A stretch of 64,000 bases of DNA from an uncultured Campylobacterales bacterium. Lineage in GTDB: Bacteria; Campylobacterota; Campylobacteria; Campylobacterales; Arcobacteraceae. Each line of letters begins with the position of its first letter. Position 1 is the first letter of the stretch. Shown in pieces: positions 49,140 through 55,511 of this stretch. Both the position numbers and the translations under genes were made by a program. Below the pieces are notes generated by a model that worked only from the letters and a program-made list of their open reading frames with translations, had not been told where the DNA came from and ran no database searches. The DNA is taken from positions 124,001 to 188,000 of the forward strand of contig CANLWY010000004.1 of the NCBI GenBank assembly GCA_947494995.1. Reading direction: 5' to 3'.

Positions 49140-50342
49140 ATGGAAAAAAAAGGTATTTTAATCATAGGTGCAGGTGGTGTAAGTAGAGTTGCAACAGTAA
49201 AGTGTGCTATGAATATTGATACATTTGAAAAAATTACTTTAGCATCAAGAACTATTAAAAGATGTGACTCTATAGCTATGTATATAAAAGATAGCCTAGG
49301 TGTAGAAATAGCAACTGCACAAGTTGATGCAGATGATATTCCTCAATTGGTAGAACTTATAAAAGAAGTAAAGCCTAAAGTAGTATTAAATGTAGCTCTT
49401 CCATATCAAGATTTAACAATTATGGATGCTTGTACACAATGTGGAGTCGATTATGTTGATACTGCAAATTATGAACATCCCGATGAAGCAAAGTTTGAAT
49501 ATAAAGAACAGTGGGCTAGAAATGATCAGTTTAAAGAAGCTGAAATAAAAGCACTTTTAGGTTCAGGTTTTGATCCTGGTGTTACAGGTGTATTTTGTGC
49601 ATACGCTCAACAAAACTTATTTGATGAGATAAACTATATTGATATTATGGATTGTAATGCAGGGGATCATGGGTATCCTTTTGCAACAAACTTTAATCCA
49701 GAAATCAACTTAAGAGAAGTATCTGCAAATGGAAGATATTGGGAAGAGGGCGAGTGGATAGAAACAAAGCCACTTGAAATAAGAGTTGAACATGACTATC
49801 CGGAAGTTGGAGTTAAGCCTTCTTATTTACTTTATCATGAAGAGTTAGAGTCTTTATCAAAGAATATAAAAGGTTTAAAAAGAATTAGATTCTTTATGAC
49901 ATTTGGTGATTCATATATTCAACATATGAATTGTTTACAAAATGTAGGAATGCTAGGAATTGAGCCTGTAATGCATAAGGGTGTAGAGATTATTCCTATT
50001 GAATTTTTAACTACACTTTTACCAGACCCAGCATCTTTAGGCCCAAGAACTGTAGGTAAGACAAATATTGGTTGTATTATTGAAGGGTACAAAGATGGTA
50101 AGAAGAAAAAAGTTTATATCTACAATGTTTGTGATCATCAAGAGTGTTATAAAGAGACTGGGGCTCAAGCCGTATCTTATACAACTGGAGTACCTGCAAT
50201 GATAGGTACAAAAATGCTTTATAAAGGTATTTGGGATGGAAAAGGTGTGTTCAACATAGAAGAGTTTGAAGCAAAACCTTTTATGGATGAACTTATGACT
50301 CAAGGACTTCCTTGGAAGATTCTTGATTTACCAGTAGAATAA
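49140..50342 (+). CDS. Carboxynorspermidine dehydrogenase (saccharopine-dehydrogenase fold)
   Basis: A 400-aa NAD(P)-dependent enzyme expected to condense aspartate semialdehyde with a diamine to carboxy(nor)spermidine. The Rossmann start [20 protein letters not shown] and [19 protein letters not shown], with [20 protein letters not shown], match the CANSDH branch rather than true lysine-pathway saccharopine dehydrogenase. The partner decarboxylase gene nspC lies two genes downstream, which supports the call. TTGGAGAAT is the ribosome site. Confidence 0.9.
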
Positions 50343-50359: not shown

Positions 50360-50527
50360 ATGCAAAAGTATATCTGTACAATATGTGATTGGGTTTATGA
50401 CCCTGCGCTTGGAGATCCTGAAGGTGGTATTGAACCTGGAACAGCGTTTGAAGATATTCCAGAAGATTGGGAATGTCCTGATTGCGGTGTAGCAAAAGAG
50501 GATTTTGAACCATACGATGGAGAATAA
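50360..50527 (+). CDS. Rubredoxin
   Basis: A 55-aa iron-only electron carrier. The two knuckles are [12 protein letters not shown] (C6, C9) and [14 protein letters not shown] (C39, C42), and the middle [16 protein letters not shown] is canonical. A strong AAAGGAG site lies five bases before the ATG. It sits between the two polyamine genes and its end overlaps the nspC start by 11 bases. Rubredoxins usually serve oxidative-stress reductases, so this location is unexpected. Confidence 0.95.
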
Positions 50528-51659
50528 AGTTTTAAAGAGTATTGAAGAATTACCAAGTCCAGCCTTTGTATGTGAAGAGAGACTTTTAAGAAAAAATCTT
50601 GAACTTTTAAAAAAGGTTCAAGATGAAGCAGATGTGAAAATTTTGTTAGCATTAAAGGGTTTTGCTCTTTGGTCAACTTTTGATTTATGTAAAGAGTATT
50701 TACAAGGATGTTGTGCAAGTGGTTTACATGAAGCAATCTTAGCCAAAGAAGAGTTCGGACGAGAAGTTCATACTTATTCTCCTGCTTTTAAAGAAGAAGA
50801 GATAGATGAAATTATTGAAATTTCAAACCATTTGGTTTTTAACTCTTTTAATCAGTTAAATCAATTTAGGGAAAAAGCACTTGGGAAAACTTCTATTGGA
50901 CTAAGGGTAAACCCTGAATACTCTTCTGTTGAGGTAGATTTATATAATCCTTGTGGCGTATATTCAAGGCTTGGTATTACAAAGGAAAAGTTTCAAGCTG
51001 ATAATCTAGAAGGAGTAGAAGGATTACATTTTCATGCACTATGTGAACAAAATGTAGATGCTTTAGAAGGAGCTTTATCAAATTTTGAAGAAAAATTTGG
51101 TGCTTTTTTACCCCAAATGAAATGGGTAAACTTTGGAGGAGGTCATCATATCACAAGAAAAGACTATGATGTGGAAGGTTTAATTAGACTTCTAAAAGAG
51201 TTTAAAAAAAGATATCCTCATTTGGAAGTTTATTTAGAACCAGGAGAGGCTGTAGGTTGGCAAACAGGTTACTTAGTGGCTACTGTGCTAGATATTGTAG
51301 AAAATCAAATGTCAATAGCCATTTTAGATACTTCTGCTGAAGCACATATGCCTGATACTTTAGCTATGCCTTATAGACCAGATATAAGAGATTCTGGAAA
51401 AGAAAATGAGAAAAAACATACATATCGTTTAGGTGGCAATACATGTTTAGCAGGGGATATAATTGGGGATTATTCATTTGATAAAGCTTTAAAAGTGGGT
51501 GATAAAATAATACTTGAAGATATGATTCACTATACTATGGTTAAGACAACTACATTTAACGGAATAAAGTTACCATCAATTGTAATAAAAAAAGAGGAAG
51601 AGTGTTATCAAGTTGTAAAAGTGTTTGGTTATAATCAATATAAAACAAGATTATCATAA
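50517..51659 (+). CDS. nspC: NspC, carboxynorspermidine decarboxylase
   Basis: A PLP-dependent fold III decarboxylase that converts carboxy(nor)spermidine to (nor)spermidine. [20 protein letters not shown], then [13 protein letters not shown] with the PLP lysine, [15 protein letters not shown], and [20 protein letters not shown] are typical. An upstream TTG at 50505 is in frame, but its spacing from AGAGGA is too short. The ATG at 50517 gives the expected N-terminus ([15 protein letters not shown]). About 380 aa. Confidence 0.93.
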
Positions 51660-51680: not shown

Positions 51681-52601
51681 ATGGGACAAGATAGAGTTAT
51701 TATTGCGGATGAGTTTAAAGATAATGAAGAAATTGATACAGAAGAAGAGATAAAACATAATAAAGATAGTAGAAGAGATAGAAAAGAGCTTAAATCAAAA
51801 GGTAAAAAAGTTCAAATCTGGGTTAAAAAAGAGACTTTAGAGTATGAAAAAGAACTTACTAAACTTCAAATCGAACTATTAAAATTTCAAAACCATGTAA
51901 AAGAAAAAGGACTTAAAGTTCTTATGATTTTTGAAGGAAGGGATGCTGCTGGAAAAGGTGGAACAATAAAAAGAATTACTGAACACCTAAACCCTAGGGG
52001 TGCAAGAGTTGTTGCTCTTGAAAAACCAAGTGATAAAGAAACTACTCAATGGTATTTTCAAAGATACACTCAGCACTTACCAAGTGCAGGGGAAATAGTA
52101 TTATTTGATAGATCATGGTATAACAGAGCTGGTGTTGAACCTGTAATGGGATTTTGTACATCAGAAGAACATCATGAGTTTTTAAGAGAAGTTCCAGAGT
52201 TTGAAAATATGCTTGTGAAATCTGGAATTATCTTGATGAAGTTCTATTTTTCAGTATCAAAAAAAGAACAAGCTAGAAGATTTAAAAAAAGAGAAACTGA
52301 TCCTTTAAAACAGTATAAATTATCTCCTGTAGATAAAGAGTCACAAAAGCTTTGGGATAAATATACAATTGCTAAGTTTTCTATGTTAATGGCTTCAAAT
52401 AGTGATGTTGCTCCATGGACAGTAGTTAAGAGTGATGATAAGAAAAAAGCTAGAATAAATTGTATTAAGCATATCTTATCAATTGCTGAATATCCAAATA
52501 AAATAGATGATAGTGAGATTAAAACAAATGGTAAAATACTAATTTCTGGTGGAGAAGAACTAGGAATTATGGAAGATGAAAATAAATTTGCAAAGGCATA
52601 G
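51681..52601 (+). CDS. ppk2: PPK2-family polyphosphate kinase (first copy)
   Basis: A 306-aa kinase that moves phosphate between polyphosphate and nucleotides. Walker A is GRDAAGKG at residues 86-93, then RITEHLNPRGARVVALEKPS, TQWYFQRYTQHLPSAGEIVL and FDRSWYNRAGVEPVMGFC. One kinase domain, as in class I PPK2. A second PPK2 gene starts 6 bases after it. AAGGGGAAG is the ribosome site. Confidence 0.93.
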   Translation: MGQDRVIIADEFKDNEEIDTEEEIKHNKDSRRDRKELKSKGKKVQIWVKKETLEYEKELTKLQIELLKFQNHVKEKGLKVLMIFEGRDAAGKGGTIKRITEHLNPRGARVVALEKPSDKETTQWYFQRYTQHLPSAGEIVLFDRSWYNRAGVEPVMGFCTSEEHHEFLREVPEFENMLVKSGIILMKFYFSVSKKEQARRFKKRETDPLKQYKLSPVDKESQKLWDKYTIAKFSMLMASNSDVAPWTVVKSDDKKKARINCIKHILSIAEYPNKIDDSEIKTNGKILISGGEELGIMEDENKFAKA

Positions 52602-52607
52602 AAAAAA

Positions 52608-53723
52608 ATGAATTTAAGTGATTTTGAGAAGACAAACTATAGTGGTTTATATATTTCAAAAGCTGCTCATCCAGCTTTTGGTAAAAAATATATTGCAAGA
52701 TTTCAGTATGATAAAAAAAGATATGTAAAAGTTCTTGGGTATACAAAAAAAGATAATCTTACTAAAAAGGCTGCTTTAAACTTAATGCAAAAGTTTAAAG
52801 ACTCAATTGTAATAACAAAAGAGCAGAAGTCTTCAAAAAATACTAAAAATACTAAAATAAATGATGAAAAGTATGAAGAACTATTAGATGAAAATAGAAC
52901 TTTAAAAGAGATACTTGGAAACTTTAAAGATGTAGATCCTCAGGTTTTAAATGATGGAATTCAAAAAATCTATGACCTAGAAGAGCTTAAAGATTATCAA
53001 ATTGAGTTAATAAAACTTCAAAGTTATCTTGAGTCTCAAAACAAAAGAATGATTATTCTTTTTGAGGGAAGAGATGCTTCTGGTAAGGGTGGTGCTATTA
53101 GACGTATTACTAGATATATGAATAATAAACATTATAGAATAGTTGCTCTTGGTAAACCAACTGAAACTCAAAAAAATCAGTGGTTTTTCCAAAGATATAT
53201 TCAACACTTTCCAACAGGTGGTGAAGTAGTTTTATTTGATAGGTCTTGGTATAACAGAGCTATGGTAGAACCAATTTTTGGATTTTGTACAAAAGAAGAG
53301 TATGAAATCTTTATGGAAGATGTTGTAAATTTTGAACAAGATTTAGTAAGACAAGGAATGATTTTAATTAAACTTTATTTCTCAGTTTCAAAAGATGAGC
53401 AAAAAAGAAGATTTGATAGAAGAATCAATGATCCTCTTAGACAATGGAAATTTTCAGAAGTTGATATGCAAGCACAGGATTTATGGTCTGAGTTCTCAGA
53501 AAAAAAATATGAGATGTTAAGACGTACTTCTTCTAGATCTGCTCCTTGGCATGTTATTAGAAGTAATGATAAACATAAAGCAAGACTTGAAGCCATGAAG
53601 ATTATTTTAAATTCTGTTGATTATGATGGAAGAAATTATACTCTAGATTTCCAAGCAGATGAAAATGTTAATATCTCTGTACAAAAAGAGTTAATGCAAA
53701 TGAGAAAATCAGCTAATTACTAA
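52608..53723 (+). CDS. PPK2-family kinase with extra N-terminal domain (second copy)
   Basis: A 371-aa paralogue of the preceding protein. The kinase domain has Walker A GRDASGKG at 154-161 and FDRSWYNRAMVEPIFGFC, so it looks active. Residues 1 to about 65 are extra: SGLYISKAAHPAFGKKYIAR, then FQYDKKRYVKVLGYTKKDNL and a helix. That order (G-L-Y-I, K-x-Y-x-x-R-F, K-x-x-K-x-L-G, helix) resembles the small beta-sheet arm-binding domain found at the N-terminus of tyrosine integrases. A linker rich in K, N and E joins the two parts. The two genes probably arose by duplication and are co-transcribed. Confidence 0.88.
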   Translation: MNLSDFEKTNYSGLYISKAAHPAFGKKYIARFQYDKKRYVKVLGYTKKDNLTKKAALNLMQKFKDSIVITKEQKSSKNTKNTKINDEKYEELLDENRTLKEILGNFKDVDPQVLNDGIQKIYDLEELKDYQIELIKLQSYLESQNKRMIILFEGRDASGKGGAIRRITRYMNNKHYRIVALGKPTETQKNQWFFQRYIQHFPTGGEVVLFDRSWYNRAMVEPIFGFCTKEEYEIFMEDVVNFEQDLVRQGMILIKLYFSVSKDEQKRRFDRRINDPLRQWKFSEVDMQAQDLWSEFSEKKYEMLRRTSSRSAPWHVIRSNDKHKARLEAMKIILNSVDYDGRNYTLDFQADENVNISVQKELMQMRKSANY

Positions 53724-53738
53724 GCTGGTATCTCTTTA

Positions 53739-55511
53739 TTACCAAGGATTTGAAGAATTATCTTCATTCTTGGTTTTTACTTTCTTTAGAAGAACTTGAG
53801 TTTTCTTATCTTGTATTTTTCCTAACCATTTTTTCTCTTCTAAATCAGATATTTCTTGAGGTTTTATTTTTTGTTGTTGTTTTGATTGCTGTTCTTTTTT
53901 ATCTTTTTCTTTCTTTTTATCTTCCTTTGATTGTTGTTTATTTTGTTTTTGTTCTTCTTTTTTTTCTTTATCTTTTTGTTTTTCTTTGTTATCTTGGTTT
54001 TGTTTATCTTTATTCTCTTTGTTATCTTTATTTTTTTGTTTTTTATCTTGCTCTTTTTTCTTTTTGTCTTGTTTATTCTCTTTGTTGTTTTTTTGATTCT
54101 TTTTATTTTGGTCTTTCTTTTGTTGTTTTATTTTATCAAGTGCTTTTTGAACAGTATCAAGGTTTTCTCTAGTCTCTTTATCTGCTTTAATTTTTAATGC
54201 GGATTCATACATTTTTTTTGCATTTTCTAAATCATTAAGTTTGACATATGAATTACCCATATTATGAAGCTTTTTATACTCTAACTCTTGGTCTGTAGTA
54301 GTAACATTTTTATATCTACTAAGAGCCTCTTTATATTTTCCTTCTTTGTACAATGAGTTTGCAAGATTATATCTAGCTTCCGGAGTATTTGCTACTTTTT
54401 CAAAATCTTTTGAGGCCTTTTTATACTCTTTATTTTGGTATTCTTTGTTTGCTTTATTTATTGTTTGAAAGTCAAATTCTATAGCTTTTAAATCATTATT
54501 TATTAAGAGGCTTAAAAAAATTACTAAAGAAGTAGCAGACTTTTTAGATAAAAATTTAGGAAGAGATGAAAAGGCTATTAAAAGAATAAATATAGCTAAT
54601 CCTAAAGGGTAATAGAATAGTTCAGTATAAGTTTTAAATTTTTTAGATTCTAACTCTTTTTTTGAGGATTTTCTATCAATATCAGCTAGAATTTGAGTTA
54701 TGTCTTCATTTGAAATTGAGTAATTAATGTATCCACCTTTTGTATTAAGACTTAGATTTTTAATACTTTCATTTAATGAAACAGTAACAATTGAACCATC
54801 TTTTTTTGTCATAAATTCACCGTTTTCTAACTTTATTGGTGCTGCTTTATTAGTAGCAACTGCTATTGTATAGATGTTTATAGCATTTTTATTTGCAAAC
54901 TCTATCTCATCTGTATAAGTAGTATTATTTCCACCATCTGTTAAGAGAATCAGGTTTTTATTATCATAATCTTTTAATAGCTTGTTTGTTGTTTCTAGTG
55001 TTGAGAATATATTTGAGCCATTATTAAAATTCATTCCTGTATCTAAGTTATTAACTAGTATTTTTAGAGAATTAAAGTCTTGTGTTACAGGAGAGAGGAT
55101 AAAAGAATCTTTTGCAAAAAGTACTACAGCTATTGCATTTTTTTTAGCATTTTCAATAATACTTAGAAGTTTTTGTTTAGCCATTGTTAGTCTATTTGGG
55201 TAGATATCATTTGCTAACATAGATTTTGAAACATCAATTGCAATAACTATACTTGCTACTTCTTGCTTAAAAGAGTGTTCTTTTTCATTTGCAACTGGAC
55301 GTGCAAGTGCTATTGTCATCAAAATAAGAGAAATAAAAAATAGAGTATTTCTTGTTGTTTTCCCCATATGTTTATTTGATATAGAGAGTTTCCCTAAGAC
55401 TTCTTTTGAAAAATATTTCTGAAAACTATCTTTATTTGTCAAGATTAAAAACATTAGAAGAAATATTGGAATCAACATGAAAAATAGTACATTTTGGTAT
55501 AAAAATTGCAA
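53739..55511 (-). CDS. BatB/BatC-type von Willebrand A and TPR fusion
   Basis: A 590-aa membrane protein: two N-terminal helices (about 6-24 and 55-70), a periplasmic VWA domain with the metal site DVSKS at 93-97 and LILLTDGGNNTTY, a helix near 306-323, another near 332-347, then TPR repeats at about 355-465. The next roughly 95 residues are almost purely K, Q, N, E and D, followed by a short conserved-looking end. BatB (VWA) and BatC (TPR) are usually separate genes, and here they are fused. A BatD homologue is at 14.1 kb. moxR and batA are not adjacent. Confidence 0.87.
   Translation of the reverse strand: MQFLYQNVLFFMLIPIFLLMFLILTNKDSFQKYFSKEVLGKLSISNKHMGKTTRNTLFFISLILMTIALARPVANEKEHSFKQEVASIVIAIDVSKSMLANDIYPNRLTMAKQKLLSIIENAKKNAIAVVLFAKDSFILSPVTQDFNSLKILVNNLDTGMNFNNGSNIFSTLETTNKLLKDYDNKNLILLTDGGNNTTYTDEIEFANKNAINIYTIAVATNKAAPIKLENGEFMTKKDGSIVTVSLNESIKNLSLNTKGGYINYSISNEDITQILADIDRKSSKKELESKKFKTYTELFYYPLGLAIFILLIAFSSLPKFLSKKSATSLVIFLSLLINNDLKAIEFDFQTINKANKEYQNKEYKKASKDFEKVANTPEARYNLANSLYKEGKYKEALSRYKNVTTTDQELEYKKLHNMGNSYVKLNDLENAKKMYESALKIKADKETRENLDTVQKALDKIKQQKKDQNKKNQKNNKENKQDKKKKEQDKKQKNKDNKENKDKQNQDNKEKQKDKEKKEEQKQNKQQSKEDKKKEKDKKEQQSKQQQKIKPQEISDLEEKKWLGKIQDKKTQVLLKKVKTKNEDNSSNPW

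Follow-up and report, generated by a model that had tools for sequence, protein, structure and literature searches.

A class I polyphosphate kinase 2 carrying an integrase-type arm-binding domain in Arcobacteraceae, and its possible tethering to DNA

The fusion gene and its locus

The window, that is, the whole 64-kb stretch of DNA that was analysed, belongs to an assembly of 3.17 Mb. On its forward strand an uninterrupted open reading frame with an ATG start (52608-53723) encodes a protein of 371 residues in which an arm-type domain stands ahead of a polyphosphate kinase 2 (PPK2). The genes and features of the locus are the following.

49140-50342 (+): probable carboxynorspermidine synthase (NF043000, 399 bits, under the cut-off of 800)
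50505-51659 (+): nspC, carboxynorspermidine decarboxylase (TIGR01047, 567 bits, cut-off 409)
51681-52601 (+): PPK2 without arm domain (TIGR03707, 373 bits), ending 6 nt before the fusion gene
52608-52811 (+): integrase-type arm-binding domain, residues 1-68 of the fusion protein (fold model, fold matches and profile matches to integrase N-termini)
52686-52730 (+): invariant polar residues of strands 2 and 3 (K27, R31, Q33, K37, R38 and K41; 67/67 distinct fusions)
52812-52898 (+): variable charged linker, residues 69-97 (pN/pS 0.81, mean majority residue 0.35)
52974-53627 (+): class I PPK2 kinase domain, residues 123-340 (Pfam PF03976, TIGR03707, solved structure 4yeg)

The Pfam match of the kinase extends over residues 123-340 (PF03976, E 9.6e-86), and the scores with TIGR03707 (cut-off 301.8) are 373 bits for the upstream PPK2, 329 for the genome's third PPK2 and 320 for the fusion protein itself. 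The Walker A residues G154, G159 and K160, followed by D211, N216, R268 and R272, are invariant in 34/34 sequences; these include N216 of the SWYNRA motif, which we take to be the class I Asn that follows Walker B. Judged by its fold, Walker A and B motifs, lid residues and this Asn, the fusion kinase is a class I PPK2, sharing the whole kinase domain, the Walker motifs and the class I Asn with PPK2s of Francisella (4yeg), of the P. aeruginosa type (TIGR03707) and of Campylobacter jejuni. The Francisella structure heads the solved relatives (E 1.2e-75, residues 126-350), and for none of the 18 matched solved PPK2-type sequences does the best stretch extend into residues 1-104 of the fusion protein. 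According to the available part of a PPK2 review, an Asn signature marks class I PPK2s, and the fused PPK2 proteins named there are PPK2-PPK2 only (PMC8776046).

A Pfam scan of the fusion protein identified PPK2 and nothing N-terminal to the kinase. The core-binding and catalytic domains of integrases are absent from the same scan, indicating that the protein is no tyrosine integrase. The first-pass annotation had described an intact PPK2 kinase joined by a charged linker to an N-terminal domain with the motifs GLYI, KYIARF and KRYVKVLG and a following helix, next to a PPK2 copy lacking that domain, and all of this was found again: the motifs lie at residues 13-16, 27-32 and 37-44, a helix is predicted at 53-68, and the linker is variable as well as charged, as seen from the alignment and from pN/pS. 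On the reverse strand, a single open reading frame at 53739-55511 combines a BatB-like VWA part (residues 10-310) with a BatC-like TPR part (328-503); both parts score below cut-offs, and the gene is a possible BatB-BatC fusion.

Relationship of the N-terminal domain to integrase arms

The N-terminal domain was modelled with a mean pLDDT of 91.9 as strands at 14-17, 27-34 and 37-45 and a helix at 53-68, with an extra short strand at 6-8. In the available part of PMC8138268 the arm domain of tyrosine integrases is defined as N-terminal, with three beta strands and one helix, and besides strand 6-8 this is the composition of the model. When the model was compared with PDB chains, 3rmp (Z 7.7), 3jtz (7.4) and 3ju0 (7.1) came out on top of the 998 chains aligned, the next one scoring 4.8, although by the tool's own caution a Z below 8 may mean merely a common arrangement. 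These three chains are arm-type domains of P4-like, HPI and HAI7 integrases. They share with the fusion arm the three-stranded sheet and the C-terminal helix, 62 residues superposing with an rmsd of 2.2-2.9 at 11-13% identity, and differ from it in that their arm belongs to an integrase and this one to a kinase. Foldseek likewise ranked 3jtz and 3rmp first with a probability of 1.00, but with weak E values of 0.04 and 0.06. A fold search of BFVD gave no match at E < 0.001, and its weak list includes integrases and homing endonucleases. In the model of the whole protein the kinase is of low quality (mean pLDDT 71.9), and we therefore draw no conclusion from it on the placement of the arm relative to the kinase.

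These fold comparisons are independent of the integrase sequences retrieved by profile search. The domain profile was built from the 34 sequences that remained when 67 distinct fusions were filtered at 88% identity, and was run over 397 genomes, all of the phylum Campylobacterota. At E <= 0.001 it matched 47 of them, 41 being in the family of the host, defined by the assembly's own genome grouping (f1) and taken as Arcobacteraceae. Outside the family there was no PPK2 fusion among the matches to these 397 genomes. The non-PPK2 matches fell at 11 places (L085, L086 and L135-L143), all of which we read as N-termini of tyrosine integrases. The best one, L135 in genome G311, is aligned gap-free over residues 1-68 with an E value of 2.8e-15 (52 bits) and has LGY.KKDNLT in common with the fusion domain; there an integrase catalytic domain comes after the arm (Pfam E 3.1e-15), in the place that the kinase takes in the fusion. 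The L135 integrase also matches PHROGs and annotated phage integrases. The Pfam Phage_integrase cut-off was passed by 10 of the 11 profile-matched proteins and by L088, which was matched by the first 90 residues used as query; in L142, a frame of 248 residues, integrase domains were found in Pfam only below the cut-off. Pfam arm models were found twice in the 12 matched integrases, both times below the cut-off (Arm-DNA-bind_2 in L086 and Arm-DNA-bind_3 in L143), and no curated Pfam arm model matched any of the 34 fusion domain sequences. Alignment of the fusion domains with the integrase N-termini by hhalign gave 99.3%, a value that is partly circular and overstates independence because the integrase rows had been chosen by the same domain profile.

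As a control we gathered 35 integrases by means of other domains and scored the 384 open reading frames in their loci. The six top profile scores were all integrase N-termini. Only one of the 35 integrases was significant (L212, which is the already known integrase of G016) and the next five were not; most integrase arms thus go unrecognised by the profile. The first 90 residues as a single query found nothing in Pfam, PDB sequences, plasmids or phages, the profile found nothing among PDB sequences, and a scan of viral contigs was likewise empty. A PHROGs search with the domain returned weak matches only, whose meaning is ambiguous. The empty single-sequence searches, and the fact that most integrases picked by other domains lack a significant profile match, are what one would expect if two domains of separate ancestry had converged on a small and common fold. 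Against this stand the profile matches, every non-PPK2 one being an integrase N-terminus and the best running colinear from residue 1, together with the ranking in the control set. Convergence is thereby largely refuted, and we find it hardly credible.

Profile and predicted fold together confirm the main reading of the first-pass annotation, namely that the start of the protein shares ancestry with the arm-binding domain of tyrosine integrases, and they confirm that the fusion architecture is real; a fold unrelated to arm domains, which that annotation had named as the outcome that would count against it, was not obtained. The domain end that it had placed at 52802 (residue 65) is about three residues short, since the helix ends at residue 68 (52811).

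Distribution, conservation and origin of the fusion

When the first 90 residues were used as query, 97 of the 104 genomes of the family were matched at E <= 0.01, and in all 67 distinct proteins that were checked at full length the domain is fused to PPK2. These counts, and a domain far better conserved than the linker, argue that the fusion is more than a chance event. The closest fusions in named records carry mostly Arcobacteraceae names. The fusion record L060 is titled Sulfurospirillum, but a match with identical contig coordinates occurs in G042, a genome placed in the family, and we regard the title as a labelling problem. On named genome contigs we found 51 loci, of which 42 (L034-L075) match over residues 1-371, except for L073, which is cut at a contig end; in the other nine (L076-L084) the match begins no earlier than residue 54. 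In one of these, on a contig labelled Actinobacteria (L076:4001-4717), the PPK2 is 67% identical to the kinase of the fusion, which may reflect horizontal transfer or misbinning.

Seven genomes of the family were not matched. For G024 the absence of the arm was not accepted as genuine, since a contig end truncates the gene. Two further genomes are incomplete: G073 (85%) lacks any PPK2 match, and G074 (61%) contains a single PPK2, without the arm. The other four belong to a single genus with small genomes (g6), in which G037 and G039 have armless kinases and G038 and G040 a different PPK2 pair. A second type of PPK2 tandem with both genes armless was observed at L155, L157 and L156 (genomes G038, G040 and G052); the first of the two genes clusters with PPK2s from families f7, f10 and f12, a possible sign of horizontal spread.

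To compare the segments of the protein, pN/pS was pooled over 615 pairs (80-97% identical) among the 67 distinct fusion sequences. It amounts to 0.177 for residues 1-68, 0.807 for 69-97, 0.430 for 98-122, 0.098 for the kinase and 0.204 for the tail, and the arm domain is thus under purifying selection (0.18 versus 0.81 in the linker). K27, R31, Q33, K37, R38, K41 and G44 are invariant in the 67 fusions, and the polar residues among them, in strands 2 and 3, probably form the binding face. In the 11 integrases Lys occupies position 37 in ten and position 41 in nine, while positions 31, 33 and 38 vary and Gln is never found at 33. At position 40, 33 of 34 fusions have Val, whereas all 11 integrases have Arg, Lys or Thr. 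The presumed face therefore differs from that of integrase arms at Q33 and position 40, which may mean a change of ligand. As a whole, the pattern suggests one fixed ligand and a contact surface that was adjusted after capture. Residues 1-68 of the window's protein have a net charge of +10 and a pI of 9.95, and across the 34 domain sequences the net charge ranges from +3 to +10.

The first-pass annotation had explained the gene pair by a duplication followed by gain or loss of the domain. We tested this with a tree of 58 kinase domains, midpoint-rooted for drawing only, which includes some long branches and, after clustering, eight fusion rows. The fusions lie in a well-supported set of 11 rows (100/97), together with the cut L073 and with the kinases of G037 and G039, which lack the arm and are nested within the set (98/86). 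The upstream PPK2 lies elsewhere: it joins PPK2s from further families of Campylobacterota in a supported, phylum-wide clade (99/94). Local duplication was therefore rejected as the source of the pair, which appears to consist of old relatives brought together. The genome's third PPK2 is placed outside the fusion set and inside a larger set of 17 rows (100/99). The nested position of the armless g6 kinases points to loss of the arm, and the simplest reading of the tree is that the arm was gained once, at or close to the root of the family, with a subsequent loss in g6. That this genus retains the kinase indicates that the kinase does not need the arm.

The gene pairing is conserved. The genes for 78 of 80 distinct fusion proteins immediately follow a PPK2 gene of the same orientation, the distance between the two, measured from the homologous start of the fusion, ranging from -20 to +18 nt; the exceptions are L061 and L097. 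At L061, nspC is present with no PPK2 found between it and the fusion gene, and the partner seems lost or unread. In all 37 named loci with room for it, nspC precedes the PPK2 pair, and a relative of the carboxynorspermidine synthase is present in 33 of these 37. The 23 best-scoring loci outside the family contain neither nspC nor a second, fusion-type PPK2 within about 1.5 kb.

We also screened for PPK1, using the single model PF02503, which matched 0/104 genomes of the family, the host included, and 179 of 200 genomes in a sample of the phylum. PPK1 and PPK2 counts were paired by identical genome handles in both samples. Of the 21 genomes of the sample without PPK1, 20 are listed; 19 of these have two or three PPK2 matches and G283 has one. 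Among the 179 genomes with PPK1, 13 have two or more PPK2 matches (counted by eye).

Proposed function of the arm and competing explanations

We lean modestly towards the view that the arm tethers PPK2, and hence polyphosphate turnover, to DNA. Early in Arcobacteraceae the arm-binding domain of a tyrosine integrase, encoded by a mobile element, would have been joined to the N-terminus of a class I PPK2. The arm would still be a basic clamp whose three-stranded sheet lies on DNA, and by this contact it would fix the kinase and its polyphosphate to the nucleoid. PPK2s form multimers, so that several arms per particle would hold the enzyme there. Such a multi-armed enzyme may keep its polyphosphate, whether product or substrate, on the nucleoid, next to the unfused PPK2 from the upstream gene, and in a family without detectable PPK1 the PPK2s would supply both polyphosphate and polyphosphate-driven NTP synthesis. 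A wider proposal, which we offer tentatively and hold to be somewhat doubtful, is that a family losing PPK1 rebuilt its polyphosphate system on PPK2 and a domesticated integrase arm, the result being a DNA-tethered kinase, perhaps sequence-specific, that puts polyphosphate synthesis and NTP regeneration on the chromosome and is expressed alongside polyamine synthesis. Polyamines bind DNA and polyphosphate, and the polyamine genes of the locus therefore fit a link between polyphosphate and DNA without proving it.

According to the available part of PMC9239181, polyphosphate granules of Pseudomonas form in the nucleoid, where the DNA-binding protein AlgP is speculated to anchor them. The proposed outcome is alike in the two cases, polyphosphate being kept on the nucleoid by a DNA-binding protein, but AlgP is a separate histone H1-like protein whereas here the DNA-binding module would lie within the kinase. 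How polyphosphate stays at the nucleoid, and whether it influences chromosome function, is an open question in the field. If the tether is real, a kinase with its own DNA-binding module, present nearly family-wide, makes the nucleoid question testable by the removal of 70 residues, and related families with PPK1 offer a natural comparison with the PPK1-less Arcobacteraceae. The fusion is also a clear example of how a metabolic enzyme has recruited a DNA-binding domain from a mobile element. No PPK2 with an arm domain was found in the available full-text literature, most subscription journals and all preprints being outside its scope, and none is described in the available part of PMC3030594, which contains the word Arcobacter; we regard this silence as a weak sign of novelty.

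The main rival to the DNA tether, which we consider unlikely, is that the captured arm grips polyphosphate instead, either holding the chain near the kinase channel and so raising processivity or affinity, or targeting the enzyme to granules. We know of no arm domain that binds polyphosphate, which counts against such a grip, and the invariant Q33 would suit the reading of bases and be needless for a simple charge grip; in its favour, polyphosphate resembles the DNA backbone in being a polyanion, all distinct fusions share the six polar residues without exception, and position 40 departs from that of integrases. Separate polyphosphate-binding domains do exist, as reported for CHAD in the available part of PMC6537752. 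We judge it quite improbable that the arm serves protein contacts, whether with the upstream-encoded PPK2, between subunits or in allosteric regulation. Integrase arm domains also make protein contacts, and the close upstream PPK2 gene in nearly all loci suggests balanced synthesis of the pair. However, the basic charge and the conserved basic residues of the strands are typical of nucleic-acid contact, and outside the family no fused partner accompanies the relative of the upstream PPK2 within about 1.5 kb at any of the 23 loci examined.

Nucleic-acid contact could also mean RNA or ribosomes, the arm then bringing GTP regeneration to translation. This would agree with the lower polyphosphate-dependent GTP synthesis of Campylobacter that has lost its class I PPK2, as given in the available part of PMC8776046, and with the appearance of chains of the Toxoplasma mitoribosome at fold ranks 7, 11 and 14 (Z 4.3-4.6). 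We nevertheless hold it to be very improbable, for every sequence relative that was found is an integrase, and DNA-binding AP2 domains occur at similar Z, at fold ranks 10 and 13.
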